Made by a program: the position numbers and the translations under genes. From positions 1-58,424 of the forward strand of contig CADCFA010000025.1 of the NCBI GenBank assembly GCA_902800595.1: a DNA stretch of 58,424 bases, read 5' to 3'. This stretch comes from an uncultured Prevotellaceae bacterium (lineage in GTDB: Bacteria > Bacteroidota > Bacteroidia > Bacteroidales > Bacteroidaceae). The notes under the pieces are model-generated. The model was not told where the DNA came from. It worked only from the letters and a program-made list of their open reading frames with translations, and did no database searches. Shown in pieces: positions 2 to 15,886 of the stretch; the first letter of the stretch is position 1, and the number at the start of each line of letters is the position of its first letter.

Positions 2-940
2 TTGAAGAATGAAACGCCAGAGGAGGTGCCAGTTTTATTGCCTGATGGGGAGACCATCCCTGTTGCTGTTGGCTATGGTGAGGGTTATGCCTATTGCATC
101 AAGGATGCTGGCGACGATCCTGATGTGACAAATGGATTGGAGATACGAGCGAGTGTCAAACCAACAGATACCTTCGAGATCTTAGGTGGCGAGGGCGTAG
201 GCACCTTCACACTTCCAGGTTTCGACTATCCCCCAGGCTCTCCAGCTATCAACAAAGCGCCTCGTGAGATGATCCGTCAGAATCTGACAGCACTAACAAA
301 CGATCCACTCAGTATCACCATCTCCGTACCTGAAGGTGAGTCTATCGCGAAAAGAACCTTTAATCCCCGTCTGGGTATCGAGGGGGGAATCTCGATTATT
401 GGTGTCTCAGGCATTGTAAAGCCATTCTCAGAGGAAGCCTTCATAGACAGCATCCGCAAGTGCATGAATGTGGCCCAAGCCAGTGGTACCAGTCGTGTCG
501 TCATCAACAGTGGGGGCAAGAGTGAACGATTCGTGAAAGCCCTCTACCCTGACCTGCCCCAACAGGCATTTGTGGAATATGGCAACTATATCGGCGAGAC
601 CTTGAAGATAGCCCACGAACTGGACATCAGGGAAGTGACCCTTGGCGTGATGTTAGGCAAAGCCGTGAAACTCGCAGCAGGCCACCTTGACACCCATAGT
701 CGGAAGGCCACGATGGACAAGGCATTTCTCAGTGAGATGCTTCATGAAGCTGGTTGTCAGGCTGATTTAGAGAAGATCACACTTGCCAGAGAGTTATGGC
801 AGGTGATTCCCCCAGATAAGATAGAGGATTTTTGCCACGTGGTCTTACAGCATTGCATGGATCATTGTAGCCCTCTGGTGCCACAGACCAATCTTACTAT
901 TCTGCTGATTGACGACGACGGAATAATACACTCACAATGA
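2..940 (+). CDS. cbiD: Cobalt-precorrin-5B C1-methyltransferase, 5' end cut by window edge
   Basis: Methylates C1 of the corrin ring in the anaerobic B12 pathway. The visible 312 residues match the family from about residue 40 onward: the IKDAGDDPDVTNG segment, the PGSPAINKAPREMI segment and a C-terminal LAAGHLDTHSRK stretch are all present. The family's N-terminal GYTTG(S/T)CA region is absent, so the true start lies left of the window and the TTG at position 2 is not a real start. In some Bacteroidetes this domain is fused to a CbiJ-type reductase; that cannot be judged here. Its 3' end overlaps the convergent permease gene by 44 bp. Family assignment is secure; completeness is unknown. Confidence 0.9.
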   Translation: MKNETPEEVPVLLPDGETIPVAVGYGEGYAYCIKDAGDDPDVTNGLEIRASVKPTDTFEILGGEGVGTFTLPGFDYPPGSPAINKAPREMIRQNLTALTNDPLSITISVPEGESIAKRTFNPRLGIEGGISIIGVSGIVKPFSEEAFIDSIRKCMNVAQASGTSRVVINSGGKSERFVKALYPDLPQQAFVEYGNYIGETLKIAHELDIREVTLGVMLGKAVKLAAGHLDTHSRKATMDKAFLSEMLHEAGCQADLEKITLARELWQVIPPDKIEDFCHVVLQHCMDHCSPLVPQTNLTILLIDDDGIIHSQ

Positions 941-1922
941 CAGGAGCACCCACGAGGGCTGTAACGCTGTTCACTGGCAATGCGCCCTCGAAGCCTGGCA
1001 TACGTGCTATCAGATTACAGAATAATGCCAGCGCAGCACCACAGAGGGCTGTGGCTGGCATTAGTACACGATGATCGGAAGTGCGGAAGATGGCTCGTGC
1101 CAGATGGGGAACAGCCAGACCAATAAACATGATAGGACCACAATAAGCCGTCACGATAGCCACCAGCACACCAGAAGAGATAATCACCAGCATACGACTG
1201 CGACGGATATTCAGACCTAAGTTGGCAGCATAACGTTCTCCTAGCAACAGGAGGTTCATCGTCTTCACCAAGAGGCAGGCCAATGGTAGGAGTACACACA
1301 TCAGCACGACGAAGAGCACCATCTCATCACCTGACACACGAGAGAACGAACCTAAGCCCCACACCACGAAAGCCTTCACGTCTTCCTCTGGCGACAGGAA
1401 CTTCAACACACCGATAATCGCATTGGCTAGATAACCAATCATCACACCAATGATCAGCAACGTGACATTATCCCTCACCTTCTGCGACACCCAGAGGATC
1501 AATGACATCACAGCCAGCGCACCCACGATGGCAGCAACACTCATTGCCGCATCACCCAGATAACCCAGACGGGAAAGTGCCACACCTCCGATACGTCCAG
1601 AGAGCAGCACCACAAAGGCGACACCTAAGGCAGAGCCGTTGCTGATACCCAACACGGAAGGACCTGCTAAAGGATTGCGGAATACCGTCTGCATCTGAAG
1701 ACCACTGACAGCGAGACCTGCACCAGCCATGATAGCCGTCAAGGCTTGGGGCAGACGACTGTTATAGACAATGTTCGTCCAGATCTCATTGCTCTCTGCC
1801 CCCAAAAGGATGCGGCACACCTCTGACATAGGAATCCTGACGGAGCCGATGAGCAGGTTCACAATCAATAGGACAAGGATACCCATGATGAGGGTAATGA
1901 TCAGTGGCAGGGGACGTCTCAT
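897..1922 (-). CDS. btuC: BtuC/FecCD-family ABC transporter permease (probable corrinoid importer)
   Basis: Inner-membrane permease of 341 residues with about ten hydrophobic segments, of the FecCD/BtuC family that imports B12, siderophores or haem. Family hallmarks are visible: RLPQALTAIMAGAGLAVSG near residue 55, the NPLAGPSVLGISNG segment after it, and a C-terminal GLAVPHLAR stretch that normally contacts the ATPase. Its ATG overlaps the stop of the upstream binding-protein gene (ATGA), so the two are co-translated. B12 as the substrate is inferred from the surrounding cobalamin genes and not from the protein itself. No ATPase (btuD) is encoded next to it in the window, so that subunit must be elsewhere. 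Confidence 0.85.
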   Translation of the reverse strand: MRRPLPLIITLIMGILVLLIVNLLIGSVRIPMSEVCRILLGAESNEIWTNIVYNSRLPQALTAIMAGAGLAVSGLQMQTVFRNPLAGPSVLGISNGSALGVAFVVLLSGRIGGVALSRLGYLGDAAMSVAAIVGALAVMSLILWVSQKVRDNVTLLIIGVMIGYLANAIIGVLKFLSPEEDVKAFVVWGLGSFSRVSGDEMVLFVVLMCVLLPLACLLVKTMNLLLLGERYAANLGLNIRRSRMLVIISSGVLVAIVTAYCGPIMFIGLAVPHLARAIFRTSDHRVLMPATALCGAALALFCNLIARMPGFEGALPVNSVTALVGAPVIVSVLFRRRQSAE

Positions 1923-3028
1923 TTCAGAAGTCGATAATAGGTGGGTTGGTAATCAGATTCTACGAGTTCCGGATGGAAGATCGCCACAAAATCCTTCAGC
2001 AGCACATCTGGTTGCACAGGGGTAATCTCATAATAAGGCTGTTGCTTCATATTACAATAGATCACCTTCCGTTCCTTATAAGCCTTGAAGAGTTCATTTC
2101 GTGGCTCAGAGGATTTCAGGGCCTCATAACTGAAATCACCTTGGAAGCTGTTCAGGATGCGCCAGTAGTCGGCATTAGCCGCCAAGGCATACATCTTCTC
2201 AAACTCCAGGTTCTCACCAGCTGTCTCTTCATCCTGAATGACATAGTTGGCGCCAGCATCACGGAATATCTGAGCCAGATAGTTCTTGCCACCAACGGCA
2301 TGCCATGTGCCACTGTGCATCTCACCACTGAAGACAGTGGGGCGCGTCGTGCTTTTAGCAGCCTGTGTCTTGATGTCGTTATAACGTTTCTCTATACCAT
2401 CGAAGACCTCCTGCGCCTCTTTCTCCTTGCCGATAAACATACCCACAAACTTAATCCACTCAGCCTGTCCTAAAGGATCGAGCTCCTTATAGCCCAAATG
2501 GGGCACGAGGGTGATGCCCGTCTCCTTGATAGGCTCATAGCCACCACGTTTGAAAGGTGAGATGAATATCACATCAGGATTAGCAGCCAGCACCATCTCT
2601 GTATCGAAATTGCCTTCCATGCCAATCTTCACGATACGTCCGTCTTTCACACGTGCTAGAATATCTTTATTATAGAGATTCTTCGTGCCTGTCAGACCTT
2701 TCACCACATCATGGGCATCAAGGATGGTGAAGTTGGAGAGCTGAAGGGCTGTCATACAGATGGTACGCTGGATAGGTACCTTCACCTTCGTATAACCCTC
2801 AGGCACAGCGGCATCATCAGTCCTTACGAGAGCGAAATGATCATGCTTGCCCACATCCACCAGACGGATATCGGCAGAGTCGCGTACACTGAAACCTGTG
2901 GCATACTTCACAGACATCTCTACGAAAGCATCGTCAGAGGCAGCATCAGCGCCTTGCTTCTTGGCATTCTTACCAGAACAGGCACAGAACAGGGCTACAA
3001 CAGCAAAAGCCCAAAAGAATTTTCTCAT
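1919..3028 (-). CDS. btuF: ABC transporter substrate-binding lipoprotein, BtuF-like
   Basis: Periplasmic-binding protein of 369 residues for the adjacent permease. It begins with a short basic, hydrophobic leader ending FCACSG, a slightly unusual lipobox. The residues after the Cys are Lys-rich and not acidic, which suggests the inner leaflet or periplasmic side and not the cell surface. The PBP fold shows in segments such as ANPDVIFISPFKRGGYEPI and the TWHAVGGKNYLAQIFRDAGA region, typical of cobalamin/haem/ferri-siderophore binding proteins. Its 5' end overlaps the end of cbiB by 59 bp and its 3' end overlaps the permease by 4 bp. Corrinoid specificity is inferred from the locus. Confidence 0.8.
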   Translation of the reverse strand: MRKFFWAFAVVALFCACSGKNAKKQGADAASDDAFVEMSVKYATGFSVRDSADIRLVDVGKHDHFALVRTDDAAVPEGYTKVKVPIQRTICMTALQLSNFTILDAHDVVKGLTGTKNLYNKDILARVKDGRIVKIGMEGNFDTEMVLAANPDVIFISPFKRGGYEPIKETGITLVPHLGYKELDPLGQAEWIKFVGMFIGKEKEAQEVFDGIEKRYNDIKTQAAKSTTRPTVFSGEMHSGTWHAVGGKNYLAQIFRDAGANYVIQDEETAGENLEFEKMYALAANADYWRILNSFQGDFSYEALKSSEPRNELFKAYKERKVIYCNMKQQPYYEITPVQPDVLLKDFVAIFHPELVESDYQPTYYRLLK

Positions 3029-3938
3029 AAACCAAAACTATTAGTATCATCAATATTTCTGCCACGCGATTCACGCGGACAGCTTTCTTCATATCACTGG
3101 TATCGAGCAGTCTATCGTGCTCGCCTATATAGGGTTTGTCGAAGAGTTGGCCGAAGTAATAATGTGGTCCTCCAAAGCGACAGTTCAGGATACCTGCTAA
3201 GGCAGCTTCAGGATAACCGCTATTAGGACTGGCGTGACGACAACCATTCTTCCATACAAACTTTAGGAGACACAGTTTCCCCGAAGCAATAATCATCAGA
3301 AAAGCAGTGAGACGAGCTGGGATATAATTAGCCACATCGTCGATATGCGCAGCCCAACAGCCAAAGTCCTTATAACGCTCTGTCTTGTAACCTATCATCG
3401 AGTCGAGGGTGTTTACCATCTTATAAGCCAACATACCTGGTGTACCCAACAAAGCAAACCAGAACAGTGGGGCTATCACGCCATCGCTCAGGTTTTCTGC
3501 CAACGTCTCTAACGCAGCTATACGCACCTCCTGGGCAGAGAGCTCTGAGGTGTCACGCCCCACGATGCGAGCCACCTGCCGCCTACCCTCTTCAAGACTG
3601 CGATCCATAGCTAGAAACACCTGCCGCACCTCACGGATAAGGGTGGTTCCTGCCAGACAAAAGAACACCACAATAGCATCAAAAATAATGATTAACACAT
3701 CAGATGCTATTAGAAGTCTCAAGAGCCAAGTAACAAGGAATATCAGGAGAATCAAGCCTATCGCCAACAAGGCACCTTTCAGCATACGATGCAGGCCCTG
3801 ATTCAGACGATGCTCCCCCCAGGAGATCATCTTACCAAACCCCACCACAGGGTGAGGCAACCAGGCTGGGTCGCCTAAAAGCAGATCGAGCATCCAGCCT
3901 ATCAGCAACGGTAATATGATTATCATCCAGTTATCCAT
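2970..3938 (-). CDS. cbiB: Adenosylcobinamide-phosphate synthase, CbiB/CobD
   Basis: Integral membrane enzyme that attaches (R)-1-amino-2-propanol phosphate to adenosylcobyric acid. The 322 residues include the family signatures LLGDPAWLPHPVVGFGKMI near the N-terminus, AALETLAENLSDGVIAPLFW around residue 145, and KMVNTLDSMIGYKTERYKDFG just after. Several strongly hydrophobic segments fit a polytopic protein. It lies downstream of the truncated threonine-phosphate decarboxylase, which would supply its aminopropanol phosphate, and overlaps it by 8 bp. The C-terminal 20 residues overlap the start of the binding-protein gene and look poorly constrained (Cys/Phe-rich). Confidence 0.93.
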   Translation of the reverse strand: MDNWMIIILPLLIGWMLDLLLGDPAWLPHPVVGFGKMISWGEHRLNQGLHRMLKGALLAIGLILLIFLVTWLLRLLIASDVLIIIFDAIVVFFCLAGTTLIREVRQVFLAMDRSLEEGRRQVARIVGRDTSELSAQEVRIAALETLAENLSDGVIAPLFWFALLGTPGMLAYKMVNTLDSMIGYKTERYKDFGCWAAHIDDVANYIPARLTAFLMIIASGKLCLLKFVWKNGCRHASPNSGYPEAALAGILNCRFGGPHYYFGQLFDKPYIGEHDRLLDTSDMKKAVRVNRVAEILMILIVLVYEKILLGFCCCSPVLCLFW

Positions 3939-4797
3939 GTCTCAAGCGCGTAAAAGTATAGATAGCTTTCACCAGTTCATCATTATACTCAGGCTGCTGT
4001 GCAGCAATGCGAAAATGGCAATCTTTCAAACCCTCGAAATTAGATGAATCACGAATCAGAAATTGATGGTTCTCAATTAGATATGACTTCAATTCTAATG
4101 CGGAAGACTGTCGGATAGAACAAAGCATAAAGTTCGTCTTGGTGGGATAGACATGAATGCCAAAGATACCACTAAGCTTCTTTGCGACAAACTGAGCCTC
4201 AGCTAATAACTCGTCCATCATATACTGCTCATTGGGATCTTGATGGGTGATAAGCCACTTGCCTGCCTCTATCGCTAACGCGTTAACTGCCCAGGGACGA
4301 TAATTGGCACGCAGTCGGCTGATGACAGGAGCAGGAGCTGTGATATAACCCAAGCGCAAACCTGGGATGGAGAAGCGTTTCGTCACCGAATGAATCTGAA
4401 TCACATTCTGCATCTCAATGCCTTCTTGTGGCGAAAGCATTTTACAGAAAGTGCAATCCTCATACGACTGATCGATAACGAGCCAGTGATGACGACGCGA
4501 CAGATTTTGGAGCTTCTCCAAGGGATAGACCTCACCCGTAGGATTATTGGGATTGCAGAGCCAGCGCACTGCCCCACCCTTGGGTGCCTCCTGATAGCCA
4601 TACATCCTACAGGCATCCGCATATTCGCTGAATGTAGGACGCTTCACAGCGAAGGTTCCTTCTTCACGCAGCGTCTGGGCTATCAGATAGATGGCATCTG
4701 TGGCACCACTGGTAACCAACACCTCATCAGGCTGGATATGATACTCATTGGCAAGCAGTACTCGAGAGTATTTGATAAATCCGATCCATATCCACAT
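3931..4797 (-). CDS. cobD: Threonine-phosphate decarboxylase (CobD/CobC-like), N-terminally truncated
   Basis: PLP enzyme that makes (R)-1-amino-2-propanol O-2-phosphate. The body is clear: TSGATDAIYLIAQ, WLCNPNNPTGEVYPLEKL, and SVTKRFSIPGLRLGY with the PLP lysine at about Lys140 of the 288-residue product. The expected first 60-70 residues are missing; in this family they carry the substrate-binding arm (a GHGG-like motif and an FSSN-like Asn). Instead the frame runs straight into the end of cobQ. I chose the ATG at 4797, 53 nt inside cobQ, because everything further upstream is an out-of-frame reading of cobQ; an ATG at 4890 is also open. Either a real deletion removed the gene start or the assembly collapsed. 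Function is doubtful. Confidence 0.7.
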   Translation of the reverse strand: MWIWIGFIKYSRVLLANEYHIQPDEVLVTSGATDAIYLIAQTLREEGTFAVKRPTFSEYADACRMYGYQEAPKGGAVRWLCNPNNPTGEVYPLEKLQNLSRRHHWLVIDQSYEDCTFCKMLSPQEGIEMQNVIQIHSVTKRFSIPGLRLGYITAPAPVISRLRANYRPWAVNALAIEAGKWLITHQDPNEQYMMDELLAEAQFVAKKLSGIFGIHVYPTKTNFMLCSIRQSSALELKSYLIENHQFLIRDSSNFEGLKDCHFRIAAQQPEYNDELVKAIYTFTRLRHG

Positions 4798-6229
4798 AAC
4801 GGCGCACATGATCGGCGAGTTTGTTGTATTGTTCTTCTTTATAAGCCTGATAATCGAAGGAGGTGGCATCTCCACTGAACTTCTCTGCAAAAGGTTTCAG
4901 GAGTTCATCCACAAAGGCTGCATTATCGAGGATACCATGCACATAGGTACCCATACATTTCTCATTCACCCGATAGCCGTCAGCTCGTCCATCGTGCAGA
5001 TATAGCATCGGCGAGGCCTCCGCATCGCCGAAGGGTTTCGTCTCTCCCATGTGAATCTCATAGCCCTCACCATATTCGCACCTCACCTGACGTGTGAGTT
5101 TCTCACCACTCATTGTGGTGGTGACAGGCAGCAGACCAAGTCCTGGGAGTCGTTCGATATCGCCTTCCACATGATCAGGATCGCACACCTCGATACCCAT
5201 CAGCTGATAACCGCCACAGATACCCAACACAGAAGTTCCTTCACGATAAGCCTTCACGATGGCTTGGGCACAACCGTTTCGACGCAGTTCGTAAAGATCA
5301 TGCAACGTTGACTTGGTACCAGGCAGGATGATGATATCCGCCTTCTGAATATCCTCCACGTTATTAGTATAAAAAAGATGTACGCGCGCGTCCTGTTCCA
5401 GTGCATCGAAATCGGTATAGTTCGAGAGGTGCTGTAACATGATGACGGCAATGTTCACCTTGTCCTGTTGCAGTTGGAAAGACTTCTGGGCGAGTGCCAC
5501 AGAATCCTCTTCCTCGATATGGATATCCTTGAAATAAGGGATTACCCCCAAGACAGGTACCCCACATATCTCCTCCAGCATCCTGCGTCCTTCCTCAAAC
5601 AGGCGCATATCCCCACGGAACTTATTGATGATGATCCCCTTGATGAGTGCCTTGTCCTCTGGTGTCTGCAGGGCGATGCTGCCATAGACAGAAGCAAACA
5701 CCCCACCTCGATCGATGTCACCCACCAGGATCACATCAGCCTTCGCATGACGCGCCATCGGCAGGTTCACCAAGTCGGTAGCTCGCAGGTTGATCTCAGA
5801 GATACTGCCTGCACCCTCCATCACGATGGGATTATAACGTGCTGCCAAACGATCGAACGCCTTGCAGACTTCCGCACGGAAATCGATATCCCCAGCCCCT
5901 TGTCTGCGCCAGTAGTCGTAGGCATGCTTATTGCCAACAGGTTTGCCATTCAGTATCACCTGTGAAGTATGATCACTCTGCGGTTTCAGCAACAGCGGGT
6001 TCATATCCGTATGACAAGCGATGCCAGCAGCCTCAGCCTGAACCGCCTGAGCACGTCCAATCTCCAGTCCCTCAGGTGTCGCATAGCTGTTGAGTGCCAT
6101 GTTCTGTGCCTTGAAGGGTGCTGGCTGGTAACCGTCCTGCTTAAAAATACGACAGAAGGCTGCTGCAACGATGCTCTTGCCGACATCGCTGCCTGTTCCT
6201 GCAAACATGATGGGATGCAACTGTTTCAT
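4745..6229 (-). CDS. cobQ: Cobyric acid synthase CobQ/CbiP
   Basis: Glutamine-dependent amidase that converts adenosylcobyrinic a,c-diamide to adenosylcobyric acid. The 494 residues are about full length. The N-terminal ATP-binding domain has MFAGTGSDVGKSIVAAAFCR and FKAQNMALNSY. The C-terminal class I glutaminase-type domain has SVLGICGGYQLMG with the nucleophile Cys, and a GTYVHGILDN segment carrying the conserved His. Its ATG overlaps the cbiA stop by 4 bp. The last residues (…IYQILSSTACQ) sit at the junction with the truncated cobD, so the final few codons may not be ancestral. Confidence 0.95.
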   Translation of the reverse strand: MKQLHPIMFAGTGSDVGKSIVAAAFCRIFKQDGYQPAPFKAQNMALNSYATPEGLEIGRAQAVQAEAAGIACHTDMNPLLLKPQSDHTSQVILNGKPVGNKHAYDYWRRQGAGDIDFRAEVCKAFDRLAARYNPIVMEGAGSISEINLRATDLVNLPMARHAKADVILVGDIDRGGVFASVYGSIALQTPEDKALIKGIIINKFRGDMRLFEEGRRMLEEICGVPVLGVIPYFKDIHIEEEDSVALAQKSFQLQQDKVNIAVIMLQHLSNYTDFDALEQDARVHLFYTNNVEDIQKADIIILPGTKSTLHDLYELRRNGCAQAIVKAYREGTSVLGICGGYQLMGIEVCDPDHVEGDIERLPGLGLLPVTTTMSGEKLTRQVRCEYGEGYEIHMGETKPFGDAEASPMLYLHDGRADGYRVNEKCMGTYVHGILDNAAFVDELLKPFAEKFSGDATSFDYQAYKEEQYNKLADHVRRYVDMDRIYQILSSTACQ

Positions 6230-7485
6230 ATCTGATAGAGGTGCGTATAACTGGCTAAGACATTCTTATATCTGAAAACGGGTGTGGGTACAGGCTTGCC
6301 TTTGGCATCATAGACCTGTGTGGCTGATACAGGAGCTTTGTCCATAAACTGGGTATAGTGGAACTCATGTCCACGATAAACCTTCCCATCGAATTCGAAC
6401 TGGCGATAACCCAGGGATAACTTTCGATCCTCTTTACGGGCCGTGATGCGATAAGGCAGTACACCACACATCGGGTATTCGCCCTCATCCGTCACGATGC
6501 TCTCGCAGAGATACATCATACCACCACATTCAGCAATCACGCTGCCACCCTGTTCCGCAAAGTCCTTGATGGCTTTTCTGCAAGCCTCGTTCTTCACGAG
6601 TGCCTCCAGATGTTTCTCAGGATAGCCACCTGGCAGATAGAGCAAATCGATTTCACTGAAGTCAGGCATCTCTGTCTCAGGATCGAAACACCTGACAGAC
6701 GAAAAACGGTCTAAGGTTTCCTGATAGACAAAACTAAAACTCTCGGCATTGCGCGCCAGGAGCACTTTTTGTTCCCATACTGGGAATAAAATATTCCCAC
6801 ACTGGGAATCAAATGTTCCCACGTTGGGAACATATTTTGGGGTTAAAGCCCGCCAATCGACATGTTCCTCTAAAAGATTGATCAGCTTCTGAGTCTCCGG
6901 TTGTTCAGAGAAGTCCAGACCCAGATAGCGCGAGCCTTGTTCGAGTGAAGCATCTTTAGGGAGATACCCCAGACAGCGTACTTGCAGATCATCGCACACC
7001 TGCTTGAGCATCTCAAAGTGGCGTGCTGATCCCACCTTATTAAATATAATGCCTGCAAAACGGATGTCCTTGCGGAAATTCAGGAAACCCTGTAGCAGCG
7101 CTGCTATCGAATAGGCAGCAGACTTCGCATCGACCACCAGCACGACAGGGATATCGAGCGTCTTGGCAATCTCATAGGCAGAACCCTTATCGCGATCATA
7201 GCCGTCGAACAAGCCCATCATCCCCTCCACGATACACACATCAGCATCTGCACCATAAGCCATAAAGAGCTCACGGACATGATCTGGCGACGCCATAAAC
7301 GTATCGAGATTGATGCTGGGACGCCCACATACTGAGGTATGAAACTTGGTATCGATATAGTCAGGTCCGCACTTGAAGGGCTGCACCTTCATACCCTTCG
7401 ATGTAAGAAGTGCCATCAGCCCTCTGGCAATCGTTGTCTTGCCAGAGCCACTGGTTGGGGCTGCTATCAGAAATGCGGGTTTCAT
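6226..7485 (-). CDS. cbiA: Cobyrinate a,c-diamide synthase CbiA/CobB
   Basis: ATP- and glutamine-dependent amidation of the a and c side chains of cobyrinic acid. The 419 residues start with FLIAAPTSGSGKTTIARG (P-loop), followed by FKCGPDYIDTKFH and a VEGMMGLFDGYD segment. The C-terminal glutaminase domain has LYLPGGYPEKHLEAL and SVIAECGGMMYLCE with the nucleophile Cys. Between the two domains, about 22 residues (VPNVGTFDSQ to VWEQ) are encoded by three tandem 22-bp palindromic repeats, which look inserted. The start at 7485 is fixed by the P-loop sitting right at the N-terminus. It is first in the leftward cob operon, with a promoter-like TACCTTTG only 5 nt before the ATG. Confidence 0.95.
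   Translation of the reverse strand: MKPAFLIAAPTSGSGKTTIARGLMALLTSKGMKVQPFKCGPDYIDTKFHTSVCGRPSINLDTFMASPDHVRELFMAYGADADVCIVEGMMGLFDGYDRDKGSAYEIAKTLDIPVVLVVDAKSAAYSIAALLQGFLNFRKDIRFAGIIFNKVGSARHFEMLKQVCDDLQVRCLGYLPKDASLEQGSRYLGLDFSEQPETQKLINLLEEHVDWRALTPKYVPNVGTFDSQCGNILFPVWEQKVLLARNAESFSFVYQETLDRFSSVRCFDPETEMPDFSEIDLLYLPGGYPEKHLEALVKNEACRKAIKDFAEQGGSVIAECGGMMYLCESIVTDEGEYPMCGVLPYRITARKEDRKLSLGYRQFEFDGKVYRGHEFHYTQFMDKAPVSATQVYDAKGKPVPTPVFRYKNVLASYTHLYQI
6771..6836. repeat. Three tandem 22-bp palindromic repeats inside cbiA
   Basis: Three units of exactly 22 bp (6771-6792, 6793-6814, 6815-6836), each holding a perfect inverted repeat TTCCCA-nnn-TGGGAA, with spacers TAC, CAC and CGT. Total length is 66 bp, a multiple of three, so the cbiA frame is kept. 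It lies in the linker between the ATPase and glutaminase domains. A related site with one mismatch, TTCCTAGTATGGGAA, sits at 37459-37473 in the gap after trpA. Confidence 0.9.
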
Positions 7486-7547: not shown

Positions 7548-7579
7548 TTTGGTTTTTTGCTCGCTTATTCGTATCTTTG
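7548..7579 (+). promoter_or_regulatory. Promoter of the riboswitch-TonB-cbiK transcript
   Basis: TTTG at 7548-7551, a 20-bp spacer and TATCTTTG at 7572-7579 make a full Bacteroidetes housekeeping promoter just ahead of the cobalamin riboswitch. The 33 bp from 7548 to 7580 are nearly identical (30 of 33) to the miaA promoter. Confidence 0.8.
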
Positions 7580-7591
7580 CAGCCGAAAATA

Positions 7592-7752
7592 AGGCAATCT
7601 GGTGGCTGATGCCGCCTGATGTAAGGGAATCCAGTGAAAATCTGGAACTGTACCTGCAGCTGTAATCCCCCTTTGAAGGGTTTGCTTGTATAACGCCACT
7701 GACATGAAGTCGGGAAGGTAAAGCAGACTGGGGAAAGTCAGAAGACCTGCTT
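7592..7752 (+). promoter_or_regulatory. Cobalamin (AdoCbl-type) riboswitch
   Basis: The leader shows the conserved cobalamin riboswitch elements in order: AGGGAATCCAGTGAAAATCTGGAACTG in pieces at 7624-7650 (core J3/4 and P4 region), CTGCAGCTGTAAT at 7653-7665, GCCACTGACATGAAGTCGGGAAGG at 7695-7718 split across P6 and the core, and the B12 box AGTCAGAAGACCTGCTT at 7736-7752. The TonB receptor ATG is 54 nt downstream. In this RNA family binding of a cobalamin represses the genes below; control of the receptor/cbiK/receptor operon is therefore expected. Confidence 0.93.
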
Positions 7753-7806
7753 GAATATTATTAGTACGATCGTTCAGGAGTTAGCGGTCGGAAAATAAGA
7801 TGATTT

Positions 7807-9921
7807 ATGAGCATTAGACAGAAATTGGCTCTTGGCCTTTGGCTGTTGACTGTTGGCACTCAAGCACAGACCACTATTGTGCATGCTGACAGTTTGCAGG
7901 AAGTAGTAGTGACGGGTACTGGTACACAGCACCTGCTGAAAGACGCACCCGTTCAGACTGAGGTGATTAGTCATCGTCAACTGCAGCAATATGCCGGCAA
8001 GAGCATCGAGGATATCCTGTCAGGACTGACAGCCAGCTTTGAATTCGGTGAGAACGATATGGGCTCCCATCTGCAGATGAACGGACTGGGCAACTCGTAT
8101 GTGCTCATCCTGATAGACGGCAGAAGACTGCATGGCGACAATGGTGGTGAGAACGACCTGTCGCTGATCGATCCCAACAACATCGAGAAGATAGAGATTG
8201 TGAAGGGTGCCTCCTCTGCCCTCTATGGTAGTGATGCCATCGCTGGTGTGATCAACATCATCACCAAGAAGCATCGTGAGCAAGGCGTGATGTTTGAGAA
8301 CACCTCACGCGTTGGTTCGTATGGTGACATCCGTCAGCATAATGGTCTCGCCCTGAATTACGGCAAGCTGTCCAGCTATACCAACTTCCAGCTGCAGCAC
8401 TCCGACGGTTGGCAGAACACCTCTGAGGAAGCCATTTCACAGACTGAGTATCACATCACTGACTCACGCAACAAGACTGTGAACCGGCATACCAACTGGC
8501 AGATAGCAGAGCGTCTCACCTACCAGCTGACACCAGCCATCGAGTTGTATGCTGATGGCAGCATCTATTGGAAGCGCATCTACCGTCCTTGTGGGCATCA
8601 CCCTGGGGTGGACGTGAAGACTTGGGATCTGCAATACAACAACGCGTCTATCTCCGCAGGAGGTAAATGGAAACTGAACAGTACGGATGTCATCACCCTT
8701 GATGCCGACTGGAAGCGACATGCTTACAACTATGTCTATACAGACACCACACTAACTGATGGCTATGTAAACGGGCATTTCACCAACTACTATCCTTACT
8801 TCCCTGATGATAAGGAGTTGCAGAGTGATCAACGACTTACGAATATCTCGTTGAAAGGTATCTTCGATCTGCCTTACGAGCAGAAACTGAGTGCAGGATT
8901 CGACTATCGCTACGACTGGCTGAAAGCCCCGATGAGAGTAGAAGGTGGTAAGGCTACTGACAACACCCAGGCCCTCTATGTACAGGATGAGTTGGCACTG
9001 CTCGATCCGCTCTATCTGACAGCAGGATTGCGACTGACCAGGAACCAGGGATTCGGCACACGCCTCACCCCCAAGATCTCTGCTATGCTGAAGTTGGGTG
9101 ACCTGCGCTTGAGGGCCACTTGGAGTCAAGGCTATAAGACCCCTACCCCAAAGGAGCTCCACTACCAGTATGTCAGGAATATGAATGGGGTGTATCTCTA
9201 CTTAGGCAATGAGAACCTGAAAGCTCAGACATCGAACTACTTCAGCGTGAGTGCGGAATACACCATCGGACACCTCACACTGACACTCGCCCCTTATTAT
9301 AATAAGGTGAAAGATATGATTACGCTGGTAACTATTCCCGCCAAGGATGCACCAGGTGATCTGATTACGAAATACGACCCTATCCGAGTGCGCCAGTATC
9401 AGAATATGGAAGATGCCAAGACCTATGGTGTAGATTTCACTGTGCGCTATCAGGGCAGGCACTTCACAGCAGGCGGAAGCTACAGCTATCTCGATACAGA
9501 AGCCAACCAGTATGATTCAGAGAAGGAAATGATGCGGAAGGTTACTATCGATGGTATGGCTCATCACAAGGCAAATGTGTATGCCACCTGGAACCACGAT
9601 TTCTCTAAACGCTATAAGTTGGGCATTGGCCTCTATGGCCGACTCTCCAGCAAGCGCTATTATCAGATCGATGGCGACGGTAAGGGCTACCAGCTCTGGC
9701 GCCTCTCCACCAACCACCAGATAGGTAAGATCTGGCGCATAGACGCAGGTGTGGACAACATCTTCGATTATGTGGATACCACACCTCACGGATTGCATCT
9801 GGGTACCACAACCCCAGGCCGTACCGTCTATGCCTCACTGACCATACGACTCAATGCAGGTAAAAAACTTACGAACAGATATAAATCAAATTTCAATTCA
9901 AACTACAATGAACAAGATTAA
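7807..9921 (+). CDS. btuB: TonB-dependent outer-membrane receptor, BtuB-like
   Basis: Outer-membrane receptor of 704 residues. A signal peptide (to about TQAQT) is followed by a TonB-box-like LQEVVVTGTG, a plug domain containing LIDGRRLHGDNGG and a SSALYGSDAIAGVINIITKK segment, then a 22-strand-type barrel ending in a short basic tail. It has no SusC-type carboxypeptidase-like N-terminal domain. It is the first gene after the cobalamin riboswitch, so uptake of a corrinoid or a B12-pathway ligand is the best guess. Its last 14 bp overlap the start of the chelatase gene, so the two are co-translated. Substrate specificity is inferred from the riboswitch and locus only. Confidence 0.88.
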   Translation: MSIRQKLALGLWLLTVGTQAQTTIVHADSLQEVVVTGTGTQHLLKDAPVQTEVISHRQLQQYAGKSIEDILSGLTASFEFGENDMGSHLQMNGLGNSYVLILIDGRRLHGDNGGENDLSLIDPNNIEKIEIVKGASSALYGSDAIAGVINIITKKHREQGVMFENTSRVGSYGDIRQHNGLALNYGKLSSYTNFQLQHSDGWQNTSEEAISQTEYHITDSRNKTVNRHTNWQIAERLTYQLTPAIELYADGSIYWKRIYRPCGHHPGVDVKTWDLQYNNASISAGGKWKLNSTDVITLDADWKRHAYNYVYTDTTLTDGYVNGHFTNYYPYFPDDKELQSDQRLTNISLKGIFDLPYEQKLSAGFDYRYDWLKAPMRVEGGKATDNTQALYVQDELALLDPLYLTAGLRLTRNQGFGTRLTPKISAMLKLGDLRLRATWSQGYKTPTPKELHYQYVRNMNGVYLYLGNENLKAQTSNYFSVSAEYTIGHLTLTLAPYYNKVKDMITLVTIPAKDAPGDLITKYDPIRVRQYQNMEDAKTYGVDFTVRYQGRHFTAGGSYSYLDTEANQYDSEKEMMRKVTIDGMAHHKANVYATWNHDFSKRYKLGIGLYGRLSSKRYYQIDGDGKGYQLWRLSTNHQIGKIWRIDAGVDNIFDYVDTTPHGLHLGTTTPGRTVYASLTIRLNAGKKLTNRYKSNFNSNYNEQD

Positions 9922-11080
9922 GTATTTCATGCTGGCTATGATGACATTCGTTGCCAGCGCTTCGTTCACCGCTTGTAGCAGTGACGATGACAACAACAAG
10001 AACAATGGTAATCAGTCAAACTACGATCGCTATCAGCAGGCTGTAAATCAGACTGTTAACTCACAGAAGAAGAGCGACAAGGTGATTCTGCTTGTAGCCT
10101 TCGGTTCTACTTGGGAACAGGCTTATGACACCTTCGATAAGGTGGTTGACGACTACAAGGCAACATTCTCAGGTTGGGATGTGTATCTCTCTTTCTCTTC
10201 TGCCATCTGTATCAACAATGCCCGTGCTGGTGAGAATGTAGCTCCTAAAGACTACTACGATCCAGAGCACTGGCTCACCGCTATCGGTCTGGCAGGCTAC
10301 AAGCAGATCGTGGTACAGTCGCTGCAGGTGATCCCTGGTGAGGAGTATCGTCGTGTTCGCGACAGCTATGTGAAGGACTTCATGAACAACCGCAATGGTG
10401 ATTTCACTGAAACTTATATGAAGAGCCTTGATCGTCAGGTTGTAGTAGGCACCCCACTCATGGCTGAGGAGAGCGACGCTAAGGCACTGGCTACTACACT
10501 TAACAACGAAGCCGACGTGAAGGCAGCTGTAGCTGATGGTATCGTAGCTTTCATGGGTCATGGTAACCCAGAGGGGTATGACTACTATGGCGGTAACGTA
10601 CGCTATATACAGCTGGAGGAATATCTCCGTGCCATCAGCCCCAGCTACTATGTAGGCACAGTAGATATGGCCGAGACTTATGCAGAGGATGTATTGAAGC
10701 ACATTGCAGGCGGAAAATTCGACTACAAGATTGGTGACGTTACCAAGAGCGTTACCTATGCTGCCAATGACGCCGATAAGGCTCAGCTCTTCGTACTGAT
10801 GTCTATTGCTGGTGACCATGCCCACAACGATATGGCTGATCCCGATGACGATGAGAGCTGGTACTCTCTGTTCAATGAAGAGGGTATCGAGACAAAGGCC
10901 TACGAGACCAACTTCACTGAGGCTTGCTGGAAACAGTACAAGAGTGGCGATGAGTACATCCCAGGTCTGGCAGAGCGCAGCGCCGTTCGTAAGTTATGGA
11001 TGAATCACACAAGTGATGCTATTAAGAAACTCGGAACTGACGAGGCTTTGTCAACTCCCACAACTGCTCCAGAAGAATGA
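9908..11080 (+). CDS. cbiK: CbiK-family cobalt chelatase lipoprotein, probably surface-exposed
   Basis: Class II chelatase fold related to CbiK, which inserts Co2+ into sirohydrochlorin. Family features: VILLVAFGSTW near the N-terminus, VQSLQVIPGEEYRRV, AFMGHGNPEGYDYY with the metal-ligand His at residue 218, and SIAGDHAHNDMAD with His304. From memory of Salmonella CbiK, its Glu175 aligns with an Asp here (VGTVDMAET), and a further family His is Gln in SLQVIPG. I start at 9908 because MNKIKYFMLAMMTF leads to the lipobox FTAC with Cys23. The Cys is followed by SSDDDNN, resembling the acidic Bacteroidetes signal for export of lipoproteins to the cell surface. At 390 residues it is longer than cytoplasmic CbiK (about 260). 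It overlaps both flanking TonB-receptor genes. Confidence 0.85.
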   Translation: MNKIKYFMLAMMTFVASASFTACSSDDDNNKNNGNQSNYDRYQQAVNQTVNSQKKSDKVILLVAFGSTWEQAYDTFDKVVDDYKATFSGWDVYLSFSSAICINNARAGENVAPKDYYDPEHWLTAIGLAGYKQIVVQSLQVIPGEEYRRVRDSYVKDFMNNRNGDFTETYMKSLDRQVVVGTPLMAEESDAKALATTLNNEADVKAAVADGIVAFMGHGNPEGYDYYGGNVRYIQLEEYLRAISPSYYVGTVDMAETYAEDVLKHIAGGKFDYKIGDVTKSVTYAANDADKAQLFVLMSIAGDHAHNDMADPDDDESWYSLFNEEGIETKAYETNFTEACWKQYKSGDEYIPGLAERSAVRKLWMNHTSDAIKKLGTDEALSTPTTAPEE

Positions 11081-13200
11081 AATTATTAGGTGTATTATTA
11101 TATAGGTTTGTATCAGGAGGTGCTGTCGTGAGACAGCATCTTCTTGCTGTTATACTGCTGTTTATGGGTAGTATAAGTGTTCAGGCTCAGATTCATAAGA
11201 TGGAACATAAGGATTCGTCTTCAGTAAATCGCACCTATAATCTGAACCCTATAGTAGTTACAGGCTCTGGACATCACCAGCGTCTGAAAAGTACTGCCAC
11301 ACCTGTGCATGTGCTCTCTGCTCAGGAAATACGAGAGCAGGGCATCAGCACCTTCGACGGCGCCCTTGTCCGTATGATGCCTCAAGTATCAATGGCTCCC
11401 AACGCTATGGGTACCTTCTTACGCCTTAATGGTTTGGGCAACAAATACATTTTGATACTGATCAATGGTCAGAAGCTGTCTGGTGACATCTCCAATAATG
11501 TGGATCTGAACCGTATCAACATGGCTCGTGTAAAACGTATCGAGGTGCTTGATGGAGCTGCCTCATCACTTTATGGTTCCGATGCGATTGCCGGTGTCAT
11601 CAACATCATCACTGATCAGCCTACACAGAACCTTATAAGCGTCAGCAGCGACACCCGTATATCTGGTCACGGGCAACTGACGGAAAACGTTACACTCGAC
11701 ATCTACAAGAATGGTTTTGGTTCATACACGTCTTTCTCGCACAATCGTGCCGATAGCTACCGTATTAACGATCTCGAATATGTGAAGGATTCAGACACTG
11801 AGACGCAACCCTCTATTGCCCCTCTATTTACAGGTTATCGCTCTAACCTTATTGGACAGAAGTTCACCTATTCGCCTAACCAGCATCTGGCACTGAATGC
11901 AGGCTTGGACTACTCCTATAAAATCACGAATCGCCCAGAGACCCGAGAGGACATCACAGGTGGACTCGATTATGAGATGCGCTACAAAGGATTCCGCTGG
12001 AACTTAGGCGGTATCTACAAATTCACTGCCAAGAACTCCCTGCAGGCCACCTTCACCGTTGACCGTTTCCGTTATGGTAAAGAATATGATGTAGCCACCA
12101 AGGACTATGCCGTTGGAGACTATGTGCAGTCGAAAAAACAGCGTATGATGGATGGTGAACTAAAGGCCATTCTTGGACTGATGAAAAATTCAACGACAAT
12201 CTTTGGCGCAGACTGGCGTAAAGACTATCTGACAGCAACTTCTGGCAACATCGATGAAAATGTCTATACGTTGGCTGCCTATGCACAGCACGAGATGAAG
12301 TTATTTAAGGACTTCACCGCTACGCTCGGCCTAAGACTGACTCATCATGAGACCTTCAATAACCATCTGACACCAAAGGTTGCACTGATGTATGCACCAG
12401 GCAACTTCCGTTTCAGAGCCACCTATTCGGCAGGTTTCCGTGCCCCAGGACTTGATGAGCTCTACTATCATTATTTCTCTGTGAATCGTGGTAAGGCACA
12501 GGTTAGTTTCGGGAATAAGGACCTGAGTCCTGAGAAGAGTAACTACTTCTCGCTGAATGCCGAATATCGCAACGAGGTGATAGCCGTAAGCCTGACAGGA
12601 TACCTGAATCGCATCAACGATATGGTGATAAAGCAGAATGTACCAGTAGATGACGTTACCCGCCAGATGCTGATGACAGAATTCCCTGAGATGACACAGG
12701 ATCAAGCTGACAAAATGGTGAGCTACGCCCTGTATCAGAACAGCGACAAAGGAGATGTGAAGGGCTTGCAGGTAAACGTGTCGGCCAATATCTTCCAAGG
12801 TTTCAATCTCTCTGTCAACTATGCCTATACATACGCTCGCAGTAAGAGTGGAGAAGAATGGACTGTTTTAGAACGTAGCATCCGCAATGCTGCCACCATA
12901 GCCGCCAACTATCACCACTCGTGGGGAAAATATGGTTTGAATGTCAATCTAAACGGACAGTTACAGTCGAAGACTTACTATACAGGCAATTATGAGAATG
13001 CCCCTGGATATGGTATCTGGAATCTCCATACCACCCACAGCTTCGATGTCTGCAAATGGGCAGACCTGGTTCCCAGCATCGGCATAGACAACATCTTCGA
13101 CAAGGTGGATAATCGCATCGACTCCAGCACTAGGAAATATGCGCTCTACTCTCCAGGCAGAATGCTGGTGATTGGTCTGAAAGTAAAATTCAAACAATAA
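11077..13200 (+). CDS. TonB-dependent outer-membrane receptor (second of the locus)
   Basis: A 707-residue receptor starting on an ATGA overlap with cbiK. The hydrophobic leader ends near SVQAQ; then come a TonB-box-like NPIVVTGSG, a plug domain with LINGQKLSGDISNN and SSLYGSDAIAGVINIIT, and a beta barrel with the conserved RATYSAGFRAPGLDELYYHYF segment. It ends with a barrel-type terminal strand (LVIGLKVKFKQ). It resembles the first receptor in plan but is clearly divergent, so they are probably not recent duplicates. Co-transcription with the riboswitch-led operon is likely from the overlap. Ligand unknown; a corrinoid, cobalt-tetrapyrrole or haem-like ligand is inferred. Confidence 0.85.
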   Translation: MKLLGVLLYRFVSGGAVVRQHLLAVILLFMGSISVQAQIHKMEHKDSSSVNRTYNLNPIVVTGSGHHQRLKSTATPVHVLSAQEIREQGISTFDGALVRMMPQVSMAPNAMGTFLRLNGLGNKYILILINGQKLSGDISNNVDLNRINMARVKRIEVLDGAASSLYGSDAIAGVINIITDQPTQNLISVSSDTRISGHGQLTENVTLDIYKNGFGSYTSFSHNRADSYRINDLEYVKDSDTETQPSIAPLFTGYRSNLIGQKFTYSPNQHLALNAGLDYSYKITNRPETREDITGGLDYEMRYKGFRWNLGGIYKFTAKNSLQATFTVDRFRYGKEYDVATKDYAVGDYVQSKKQRMMDGELKAILGLMKNSTTIFGADWRKDYLTATSGNIDENVYTLAAYAQHEMKLFKDFTATLGLRLTHHETFNNHLTPKVALMYAPGNFRFRATYSAGFRAPGLDELYYHYFSVNRGKAQVSFGNKDLSPEKSNYFSLNAEYRNEVIAVSLTGYLNRINDMVIKQNVPVDDVTRQMLMTEFPEMTQDQADKMVSYALYQNSDKGDVKGLQVNVSANIFQGFNLSVNYAYTYARSKSGEEWTVLERSIRNAATIAANYHHSWGKYGLNVNLNGQLQSKTYYTGNYENAPGYGIWNLHTTHSFDVCKWADLVPSIGIDNIFDKVDNRIDSSTRKYALYSPGRMLVIGLKVKFKQ

Positions 13201-13539: not shown

Positions 13540-14337
13540 ATGCAGACAAGCATCGACCAAACGAAGTGGTATGACCGCATCTGGGCGTCGCTGATATTCT
13601 TCACCCGCCTACCCTTCTGGCGACTCCATCAGCCTCCGAAGGAATGTTATAGGCGGGTGGTAGAGCACTGGCCCCTGGTGGGCTGGCTCACAGGGGGCGC
13701 GATGGCAGCCACACTCTATTTATGTAGTATGGTTCTACCCTACATGGTGGCGGTGCTATTGGCTATTGTAGTGCGGCTGCTCCTCACAGGTGCATTACAT
13801 GAAGATGGGTTGGCAGACTTTTTCGATGGATTCGGCGGGGGCGGTAATGATCGGCAACGAATCCTCGACATCATGAAGGACTCGCATATCGGCACCTATG
13901 GCGTATTGGGGCTAATTCTCTACCTATTATTATTAGCTGTTACTCTATGTTCCCTTGAACCTCAGACTGCAACCTTATTGATTTTGGCAGCTGATCCATA
14001 CGCCAAGATGGTTGCAGCCCAGCTGATTCTGATGATGCCTTACGCCCGCAAGGAAGAAGAGGCAAAAATAAAAACGACATATCGAAAGTTCGGTCTATCC
14101 ACAGGCATCTGTCTCGCTATTCAGGGACTGTTGCCTATAGGGACTTTCATATGGATAACAGGCATCGCATGGGAGATGGTGATATTCTTGCCCTGCATCG
14201 TAATGTATTTTCTCTATCTGCTGATGTGGCGTAAGATTCAAGGCTATACGGGTGACTGTTGCGGCGCAACCTTCCTATTGGTAGAATTAGCCGTCTATCT
14301 CGTAGTTTGTATGCAATATCATATAGCAGCCCTATGA
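13540..14337 (+). CDS. cobS: Adenosylcobinamide-GDP ribazoletransferase (cobalamin synthase)
   Basis: Membrane enzyme that joins adenosylcobinamide-GDP and alpha-ribazole to form cobalamin. The 265 residues have several hydrophobic helices and the acidic family motif GALHEDGLADFFDGFGGG, followed by DRQRILDIMKDSHIGTYG. The C-terminal GYTGDCCGAT segment is also typical (usually GQTGD). The first residues (IWASLIFFTRLPFW) match the usual start. It overlaps cobU by 4 bp. Confidence 0.95.
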   Translation: MQTSIDQTKWYDRIWASLIFFTRLPFWRLHQPPKECYRRVVEHWPLVGWLTGGAMAATLYLCSMVLPYMVAVLLAIVVRLLLTGALHEDGLADFFDGFGGGGNDRQRILDIMKDSHIGTYGVLGLILYLLLLAVTLCSLEPQTATLLILAADPYAKMVAAQLILMMPYARKEEEAKIKTTYRKFGLSTGICLAIQGLLPIGTFIWITGIAWEMVIFLPCIVMYFLYLLMWRKIQGYTGDCCGATFLLVELAVYLVVCMQYHIAAL

Positions 14338-14843
14338 AGAAACTGATATTAATAACAGGTGGTCAGCGTTCTGGCAAGAGTAATGAGGCAGAGACAATGG
14401 CACTAAGCCTCTCCCCCAACCCTGTCTATCTTGCCACCGCCCACATCTGGGATGACGAGTTCAGGGAGCGAGTACACAAGCACCAGGAGCGTCGCGGACC
14501 ACAATGGACGAATATTGAAGAAGAAATGGAATTGAGTCGTCATGACCTATCAGGTCGTGTAGTCGTCATTGACTGTGTGACACTTTGGCTAACCAACTTT
14601 TTCTTTGCTAATGATTCAGATACAAACAAATCATTTGAACTGGCAAAAGCGGAATTTGATAAGTTTACCCTGCCAGATGCCACCTACATTTTCGTAACAA
14701 ACGAGATTGGCAGTGGTGGAGTAAGTGAAAACAATATTCAACGCAAATTTACTGACCTTGAAGGTTGGATGAACCAGTATATTGCCTCAAAAGCTGATGA
14801 GGTGATTCTCATGGTCAGTGGTATTCCCGTAAAAATAAAATGA
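14334..14843 (+). CDS. cobU: Adenosylcobinamide kinase / adenosylcobinamide-phosphate guanylyltransferase
   Basis: Phosphorylates and guanylylates adenosylcobinamide. I start at 14334 (169 residues) because MKKLILITGGQRSGKSNEAE places the P-loop at its usual N-terminal position and the ATG overlaps the cobS stop. Other family features are YLATAHIWDDEFRERVHKH with the guanylylated His region, VIDCVTLWLTN and VTNEIGSGGV. The length is at the family norm of about 170-180. It overlaps cobT by 4 bp. Confidence 0.95.
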   Translation: MKKLILITGGQRSGKSNEAETMALSLSPNPVYLATAHIWDDEFRERVHKHQERRGPQWTNIEEEMELSRHDLSGRVVVIDCVTLWLTNFFFANDSDTNKSFELAKAEFDKFTLPDATYIFVTNEIGSGGVSENNIQRKFTDLEGWMNQYIASKADEVILMVSGIPVKIK

Positions 14844-15886
14844 AGACATTCGTAATAGAACCTATCAATAAATCACTTGAATCTGCTATTCAAGAAAAGA
14901 TTGACAATCTTAACAAGCCCAAGGGCGCCTTGGGACGTTTGGAGGAGATTGCCATGCAGGTATGTCTGATTCAGCAATCACTCAATCCTAGTCTCACCCA
15001 TCCTTGTCATCTGCTTTTCGGAGGTGATCACGGAATCGAACGGGAAGGTGTCAGCGTCTCACCACGTGAAGTAACCTGGCAGCAGATGAAAAACTTCACA
15101 CATGGCGGAGGTGGTGTTAATATGTTCTGTCGTCAACATGGGTTCAAGTTGCGCATCATTGATGTAGGTGTTGACTACGATCTATCTTCCGTAGAAGGTA
15201 TCATCAACCGCAAAATAGCAAGAGGCACAAAGAACTTTCTCTACGAGCCTGCCATGAGTGAGACAGAATTTGACCAAGCAATACAAGTGGGCTGCGAACT
15301 TGTTGACGACTGTGTCGCAGAAGGATGCAGGATTCTGAGCATTGGGGAAATGGGGATTGCCAATACCTCGCCATCCAGTATATGGATGTCACTCTTTGGA
15401 AATATCCCTTTGGCAGAATGTATTGGTGCTGGGGCTGGTCTCAACAAACCAGGTATCCAACATAAGTATGAGATACTTTCGAAGGCTCTAAACCGTTATC
15501 TAATCTATGAACCACACCCAACAAAAATCACCCCATTCCGCTATTTCGGAGGCTTTGAGATGATCGCCGCCATTGGAGCCATGCTTCGTGCTGCTGAGCA
15601 ACACCTTATTATATTAATTGACGGATTTATTATGACGGCATGTGCTGCTGCCGCCATACAACTCTATCCTACCGCAAAAGATTATATGATATTCACCCAT
15701 TGTGGGGATGAAAGCGGACACAAGCTTATGCTCGATATGTTAGAAGCAAAGCCTTTGCTTCATTTAGGACTCCGACTCGGTGAAGGAACAGGTGCTCTCT
15801 GCACCTACCCCATCATCGACTCTGCTGTAAGAATGATCAATGAGATGAATAATTTTGAGAACGCTCAAATTACCAAATACTTCTGA
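14840..15886 (+). CDS. cobT: Nicotinate-nucleotide-dimethylbenzimidazole phosphoribosyltransferase
   Basis: Makes alpha-ribazole phosphate from the lower-ligand base and nicotinate mononucleotide. The 348 residues show LNKPKGALGRLEEIA near residue 25, LFGGDHGIEREGVS, GEMGIANTSPSS and the C-terminal LGLRLGEGTGALCTYP with the catalytic Glu. It closes the cobS-cobU-cobT unit. The usual partner phosphatase gene cobC is not downstream; a convergent AraC-type gene begins 6 bp after the stop. Confidence 0.96.
   Translation: MKTFVIEPINKSLESAIQEKIDNLNKPKGALGRLEEIAMQVCLIQQSLNPSLTHPCHLLFGGDHGIEREGVSVSPREVTWQQMKNFTHGGGGVNMFCRQHGFKLRIIDVGVDYDLSSVEGIINRKIARGTKNFLYEPAMSETEFDQAIQVGCELVDDCVAEGCRILSIGEMGIANTSPSSIWMSLFGNIPLAECIGAGAGLNKPGIQHKYEILSKALNRYLIYEPHPTKITPFRYFGGFEMIAAIGAMLRAAEQHLIILIDGFIMTACAAAAIQLYPTAKDYMIFTHCGDESGHKLMLDMLEAKPLLHLGLRLGEGTGALCTYPIIDSAVRMINEMNNFENAQITKYF

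Follow-up and report, generated by a model that had tools for sequence, protein, structure and literature searches.

What does a chelatase of the CbiK family do at the surface of a bacterial cell? The question is raised by a locus in the 58,424-nucleotide contig CADCFA010000025.1 of an uncultured Prevotellaceae bacterium (assembly GCA_902800595.1), in which a cobalamin riboswitch is followed by a TonB-dependent receptor (receptor 1), a CbiK-family lipoprotein and a second TonB-dependent receptor (receptor 2). The window analyzed here is this entire contig; it belongs to a genome that is 79% complete, and among named organisms rumen Prevotella and Xylanibacter ruminicola match it best. An earlier interpretation made from the letters alone (the sequence-only reading) had proposed that the lipoprotein is a surface-held capture or processing factor for a cobalt, sirohydrochlorin, corrinoid or haem-like ligand imported by both receptors. 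The explanation that we favour, and to which the sequence evidence gives about an even chance, is that receptor 1 and the lipoprotein form the riboswitch-controlled front end of a cobalamin pathway that has lost its cytoplasmic head, and that they acquire an isobacteriochlorin precursor.

The order and close packing of the genes, as described earlier, were confirmed by the coordinates and by the match of the riboswitch to RF00174. Receptor 1 and the chelatase gene overlap by 14 bp (9908-9921), and the chelatase gene and receptor 2 by 4 bp (11077-11080). The lipoprotein is read from the ATG at 9908; its mechanical open reading frame (ORF) begins at 9854. The protein passes the threshold of PF06180 (CbiK/class II chelatase) and keeps two active-site histidines. 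Its lipobox FTAC contains Cys23 and is followed by SSDDDNN, and Cys23, His218, Asp253, His304 and His367 are among the residues invariant in 26 of 26 aligned members, which bears out the lipobox and histidines picked out by the sequence-only reading. A chance lipobox on a cytoplasmic enzyme was ruled out by the invariance of Cys23. With 390 residues the protein is 126 longer than chain 1qgo (264), in agreement with the excess of about 130 residues over cytoplasmic CbiK claimed before.

Like the CbiK chains 1qgo/2xwp (Salmonella) and 2xvx (the periplasmic protein of Desulfovibrio), the window protein belongs to the class II chelatase family and has both catalytic histidines. It differs from 1qgo and 2xvx in being a surface-type lipoprotein, in an insert after GHG, in an Asp for Glu184, and in the loss of His96 of 2xvx, where the variable Arg148 stands. 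In 2xvx, Glu184 has a catalytic role and His96 a haem-related one. His218 and His304 align with His145 and His207 of 1qgo (counted by hand in the alignment). In Salmonella CbiK these are active-site residues, and class II chelatases mostly do not seem to be metal-specific (PMC7689651). A family-profile search of solved chains placed 9b86, 'Heme-binding protein FetB', first (211 bits), followed by 2xvx (139) and 1qgo (119), and a single-sequence search placed 2xvx (83 bits) ahead of 9b86 (72) and 1qgo (49). The N-termini of 46 relatives were scored by script (one is an internal start, and in one the wrong Cys was picked): 39 have at least three acidic residues at +3 to +6, and 43 have at least two at +2 to +6. 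The CSSDDD of the window agrees with the lipoprotein export signal rule CS(D/E)2, which experiments on B. thetaiotaomicron SusG defined as a signal for surface exposure (PMC6222051), and the acidic stretch in nearly all relatives supports the surface-type assignment.

Recurrence was studied in two sets: 40 loci in other family genomes, each a stretch of 11-20 kb and picked for diversity among strong lipoprotein matches, and 80 named loci, the best 80 of 545 relatives. The start of the lipoprotein could be read in 77 of the named loci. In all 40 diverse loci the gene immediately before the lipoprotein is receptor 1, which also precedes it in all 77 readable named loci, where the 14-bp overlap recurs in 67. 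The gene behind the lipoprotein varies. In the 77 named loci it is receptor 2 in 66 and cbiH-C in five, with none within the stretch in six. In the diverse set, counted by eye, the next gene is receptor-2-like at 14 of 40 loci (L067 and L092, in which another riboswitch lies between the two, are left out), and BtuF-like, corrin or unrelated genes stand there in the remainder. Receptor 1 is the constant partner of the lipoprotein, and receptor 2 is a variable member of the operon. The pair is thus not peculiar to this contig, and the expected recurrence in Bacteroidales holds for the pair but for the trio only in part. Likewise, the proposed capture or processing role is favoured by the surface signal, the TonB pairing and B12 control, but only receptor 1 is a constant partner. 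RF00174 was found upstream of the operon on the same strand in 21 of 21 scanned loci of family genomes, directly before receptor 1 in 16 and before a receptor-2-like gene preceding receptor 1 in five, and also in six of six isolate loci; together with the score in the window, this conservation supports B12 control. At one locus (L085, in G059) receptor 1 is followed by a tandem of two CbiK-family genes, and a CbiL gene stands between two receptors.

A census of 301 genomes of the family gave 95 lipoprotein matches at E <= 0.001, and 87 were kept after eight weak ones had been dropped. The lipoprotein was present in 87 genomes, the corrin-ring marker CbiD in 102, and both in 84 (Fisher p = 3e-52, ignoring phylogeny). 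Among near-complete genomes, 40 had both, two had the lipoprotein only, 16 had CbiD only, and 110 had neither. Only three of 199 cbiD-less genomes carried the lipoprotein. In one of these, the contig starts inside the lipoprotein gene and stops behind a BtuC-like gene, and in another it starts inside a receptor-2-like gene, each breaking off where one would look for ring genes; in the third (G413), only late genes were seen in the first 17 of 30.6 kb, the part that was read. Ring or late cobalamin genes lay inside the stretch at 35 of the 40 diverse loci, and a ring operon behind the lipoprotein (L066) encodes fused CbiH-C, CbiE-T, CbiG-F and CbiJ-D. Judged by gene content, the lipoprotein goes with synthesis of the corrin ring and not with the scavenging of corrinoids. 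With cbiD in 84 of 87 carriers and the lipoprotein in so few cbiD-less genomes, the distribution argues against a role like that of BtuG/BtuH and for one at the head of the pathway. As a separate observation, four genomes (G477, G302, G338, G534) have CbiD yet no CbiK-family or CbiX match; G477, in the genus of the window, is a single contig.

The early enzymes of the pathway were rare in the same genomes. HemB was found in 10 of 301 genomes and in four of the 102 with CbiD. Among the 56 near-complete CbiD-positive genomes, HemC was found in three and SUMT above its cut-off in two; four more had SUMT-like matches of ~160 bits, below the cut-off (one of the four was scanned), and the best match in the remaining genomes was under 136 bits, in frames of ~590-700 residues, the size of a CbiG-F fusion. 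HemB, HemC and SUMT occurred together only in G427. The genome of the window, at its level of completeness, has cbiD, and searches for HemB and SUMT found neither, nor any tetrapyrrole methylase at all. Because HemB, HemC and SUMT are absent from most genomes examined, most carriers of the lipoprotein are probably unable to make sirohydrochlorin themselves; and since most relatives have the late but not the early ring enzymes, the pair would probably fetch an early ring precursor. A similar gene content, in which corrin-ring and late genes are present and those for the precursor are missing, marks the tetrapyrrole precursor salvagers of Shelton et al. (PMC6461909), and most of the near-complete relatives, having ring genes without HemB, HemC or SUMT, would be classed as such. 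That account is general and concerns mostly Firmicutes, and the passages drawn on name no uptake system or exported chelatase; they list P. gingivalis as lacking the steps to precorrin-2. One further genome (G525) has HemB and a HemC-containing frame, with no SUMT above the cut-off, and may make haem precursors but not sirohydrochlorin.

Where, then, would cobalt be inserted? PF06180 matches were found in 52 of the 56 near-complete CbiD-positive genomes (77 genes), and an export signal was read in all 77. A simple script and visual inspection served to call signals, and split PF06180 matches were merged by hand. When other families were included, 103 distinct CbiK-family ORFs were obtained, 58 of the window type and 45 of another type. 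The window-type ORFs comprise 56 lipoproteins with acidic residues after the Cys, one with a Sec signal (L148) and one without a signal (L152), and seven more window-type genes fetched later were all lipoproteins with the acidic stretch. Of the 45 ORFs of the other type, 27 were given a signal by the script; the remaining 18 were inspected by eye, and 16 were judged to have one and two (L163, L164) to have none. The window-type lipoprotein was the sole PF06180 gene in 17 near-complete genomes, which also had no CbiX match. The separate cytoplasmic cbiK or cbiX that the sequence-only reading suggested looking for was not found among the matches in the 56 relatives. CbiX as a stand-in for CbiK was rejected, as the CbiX matches in 23 of the 56 genomes fall on exported CbiK genes; three extra partial matches (G165, G421, G449) are ferrochelatases, with ~302 bits to PF00762. 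It should be noted that the three signal-less ORFs are from other families (G087, G143, G238) and all come from genomes with SUMT above the cut-off. This link between export and SUMT is one-way, and its Fisher p of 0.0015 (0.006 if the four sub-cut-off genomes are counted as SUMT-positive) comes from small numbers and ignores phylogeny. The earlier reading had called a surface enzyme that inserts cobalt odd, and this worry is now turned round: with no signal-less CbiK and no separate CbiX found in 56 relatives, the reading to test is that the cobaltochelatases of these corrin pathways lie outside the cytoplasm. A second CbiK class with a plain Sec signal was seen at L080, L092, L157, L159 and L165-L170, ahead of corrin-ring genes. 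It mostly stands beside TonB receptors, often with a PepSY_TM protein, and has its own riboswitch in L080 and L092.

Under the favoured explanation, the lipoprotein would be displayed next to receptor 1 on the outside of the outer membrane and bind an isobacteriochlorin made by other microbes, such as sirohydrochlorin/factor II, factor III, or their cobalt chelates. It would probably insert cobalt and pass the ligand to receptor 1 for import. An ABC transporter resembling BtuFCD could carry the ligand on to the cytoplasm (BtuF/BtuC-like genes are present in 19 of the 40 diverse stretches), where CbiH-C, CbiE-T, CbiG-F, CbiJ-D and the late enzymes would complete cobalamin. Plentiful cobalamin would then switch the operon off through the riboswitch. 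What the genomes give directly is the gene order, the riboswitch, the export signal, the catalytic histidines, the co-occurrence with cbiD and the gene absences; from these we infer the location, ligand, cobalt insertion, hand-over, transport route and switching.

Several observations weigh against this explanation. The 16 near-complete CbiD-positive genomes without the lipoprotein include 12 with another exported CbiK and four without any. G427 has HemB, HemC and SUMT yet keeps the receptor-lipoprotein pair, and exported CbiK also occurs in other SUMT-positive genomes (G029, G082, G186, G281). The acidic catalytic position is Asp253 in place of Glu184 of 2xvx; GTVD or ATVD stands at this site in 57 of the 58 window-type ORFs. 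The window protein falls outside the CbiK equivalog NF047852 (88.5 bits, cut-off 400), and the signal-bearing CbiK of the other type at L092 is likewise under that cut-off (194.7). Furthermore, the conserved histidines would also fit plain cobalt binding.

A further difficulty concerns CbiL, which methylates Co-sirohydrochlorin at C20 immediately ahead of the CbiH reaction. A CbiL-C fusion had been considered as the identity of the ring gene behind the operon; it was rejected, as the family scan gave CbiH-CbiC, which exposes a CbiL gap. A CbiL-like ORF was found in just one of the 40 diverse stretches and in none of the 80 named stretches. CbiL is among the proteins that the search of whole genomes for SUMT detects. 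Eleven matches of this SUMT search were read in other genomes (10 from the family and one from G186). The CbiL N-terminal motif is present in 10 of the 11, and for each of the eight that were scanned the best-scoring family is TIGR01467, with 144-168 bits and in one case above the cut-off of 163.25. However, in nine lipoprotein-carrying genomes of what we label the Prevotella type (genera g1, g175, g182, g186, g189, g193, g196 and g202), the corresponding hits have the RsmI motif, and the two that were scanned lie above the RsmI cut-off. CbiL thus appears to be missing in G247, G276, G342, G385, G391, G427, G441, G479 and G514 despite CbiD and other corrin-ring genes; all SUMT-search matches are accounted for in eight of these genomes, and G479 has one match outside those listed. 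Two genomes (G537, G335) carry both the lipoprotein and CbiL. In the Prevotella-type genomes plain sirohydrochlorin would then lead no further, unless a different enzyme methylates C20. Given the seeming absence of CbiL, either this lineage would import factor III, which is already methylated at C20, or its cobalt form, or some other enzyme would perform the C20 step.

Four other readings share part of this evidence. The lipoprotein might capture Co2+ or a cobalt complex for receptor 1, with the tetrapyrrole coming from elsewhere. Such a role would also account for the corrin co-occurrence and the riboswitch control, and CbiK itself acquires Co(II), the two active-site histidines named for it (PMC7689651) being kept in the window protein. 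However, cobalt capture leaves the missing HemB, HemC and SUMT unexplained, a 390-residue tetrapyrrole-binding fold would be an odd choice for a bare ion, and the top-scoring family for receptor 1 is a haem-type one, albeit under the cut-off; we consider cobalt capture unlikely. A variant compatible with the favoured explanation makes the lipoprotein a periplasmic chelatase, with import by receptor 1 and metallation at the inner face of the outer membrane. The family's second exported CbiK class, which would be periplasmic by its plain Sec signal, speaks for this variant, but the acidic residues in 43 of 46 N-termini follow a pattern that drives surface exposure of SusG (PMC6222051), and we do not expect it to be right. 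The sequence-only reading had also thought a binding role like that of BtuG/BtuH worth considering, in which the lipoprotein would bind cobalamin, cobinamide or incomplete corrinoids for both receptors. The window locus does share a B12 riboswitch, a TonB receptor and a surface lipoprotein with the Bacteroides BtuB-BtuG/BtuH systems (PMC10404256, PMC6143338), and receptor 2 scores best as a BtuB-type receptor, below the cut-off. Yet neither the BtuG propeller nor a BtuH domain was found in the lipoprotein, in which only PF06180 matched, and the window type follows ring synthesis, unlike the scavenging of finished corrinoids by BtuG and BtuH. In addition, 96% of Bacteroidetes have cobamide-dependent enzymes and 0.6% a complete pathway (PMC6461909), and yet the lipoprotein is rare in cbiD-less genomes, two of its three occurrences there being on contigs that end where ring genes are expected. 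The evidence speaks against such binding, which we regard as quite improbable.

The remaining reading is removal of iron from haem at the surface, as proposed for IhtB of P. gingivalis, with receptor 1 importing the iron or the porphyrin. FetB of 9b86, the nearest solved chain by family profile though not by single sequence, is IhtB. Like the window pair, P. gingivalis IhtA/IhtB consists of a TonB receptor followed by a CbiK-like lipoprotein, and a periplasmic binding protein, a permease and an ATPase are common to it and part of the loci studied here (PMC10913741). IhtB is a presumed haem-iron chelatase (PMC10913741, PMC13227078), and the system is described as haem/iron uptake, not as uptake of a B12 precursor. 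The window cluster contains a B12 riboswitch, a second receptor and corrin genes, and the window protein has 390 residues against 293 in the FetB chain. Against haem iron removal stand the riboswitch at every scanned locus, the tight linkage to corrin genes and the variable Arg148 at the position of His96; disruption of a B. fragilis cbiK, which may be a gene of another type, had no effect on haem-iron use (unpublished, quoted in PMC6460266). This reading has only a slim chance in our estimate. It should be noted that hmu-like operons with a cobalamin riboswitch have been linked to cobalamin metabolism with a 'perhaps' (PMC10100974); further literature on the topic includes PMC8123684, PMC7160235 and PMC12751083.

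The layout of receptor and lipoprotein is known from IhtAB. What is new is where the lipoprotein is placed, as the first element of a corrin pathway truncated at its start; the genomes of the family that were examined yielded no cytoplasmic chelatase. In the passages of the literature searched, we found no published work that ties a headless corrin pathway to both a TonB receptor and an exported CbiK. More tentatively, and with the chances somewhat against so broad a claim, a surface cobaltochelatase in many Bacteroidales may carry out the first metal-handling step of B12 synthesis, loading a scavenged isobacteriochlorin with cobalt and passing it to a dedicated TonB receptor, with factor III as the ligand in Prevotella and IhtAB as the equivalent system. 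If true, this would be the uptake step that has been missing from corrin pathways without a beginning. The P. gingivalis pathway of this kind was reportedly posed as a puzzle by Roper et al. in 2000, and a 25-year-old question would become testable. The Porphyromonas IhtA/IhtB pair, discussed as haem uptake, would be reassigned, an early B12 intermediate would join the nutrients exchanged among gut and rumen microbes, and a cofactor-building enzyme would be placed outside the cell.

Features of the locus and of the neighbouring cobalamin genes, with positions in the window
Feature	Position	Strand	Evidence or remark
Promoter-like TTTG (7548-7551) and TATCTTTG (7572-7579), Bacteroidetes -33/-7 type	7548..7579	+	candidate, read by eye
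Cobalamin riboswitch aptamer RF00174	7583..7768	+	79.3 bits, gathering score 31.5
TonB-dependent receptor 1	7807..9921	+	Plug and beta-barrel; NCBIfam best TonB-hemin 176.8 bits, below cut-off 316.85
CbiK-family surface-type lipoprotein, 390 aa	9908..11080	+	PF06180 118 bits, cut-off 26.2
Codons of the chelatase gene: Cys23, His218, Asp253, His304	9974-9976, 10559-10561, 10664-10666, 10817-10819	+	
TonB-dependent receptor 2	11077..13200	+	Plug and beta-barrel; NCBIfam best TonB-B12 152.7 bits, below cut-off 599.7
CobS	13540..14337	+	family scan
CobU	14259..14843	+	family scan; listed ORF from TTG, real start probably later
CobT	14840..15886	+	TIGR03160 402.6 bits, above cut-off
CbiA	6226..7485	-	family scan
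CbiP	4745..6229	-	family scan
CobD-like aminotransferase	3931..4890	-	PF00155; CobD name inferred from position
CbiB	2970..3938	-	family scan
Periplasmic binding protein, BtuF-like by position	1919..3028	-	PF01497
FecCD/BtuC-type permease	897..1922	-	family scan
CbiD (corrin-ring pathway marker), N-terminus cut by contig end	2..940	+	TIGR00312 310 bits, cut-off 200

The repeats in the operon were uninformative, the longest being homologous receptor sequence, and the conserved His, Cys, Met and Trp residues of the receptors gave no clue to the ligand. The BtuC/BtuF-like pair (897-3028) adjoins cbiD, and no ABC ATPase was noticed beside it among the window proteins scanned, which are part of the ORFs. 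A phage origin of the lipoprotein was rejected: eight phage records match by tblastn, of which five are listed at 23-29% identity, and the matches are unannotated. CbiK-like stretches were seen in the small phage records MT836329, MT835897, MT839370, OR848684 and OR846832, and possibly represent bacterial DNA in phage collections. Far from the operon, at 56400-57320, the window encodes a Fic-domain protein with a winged helix-turn-helix.

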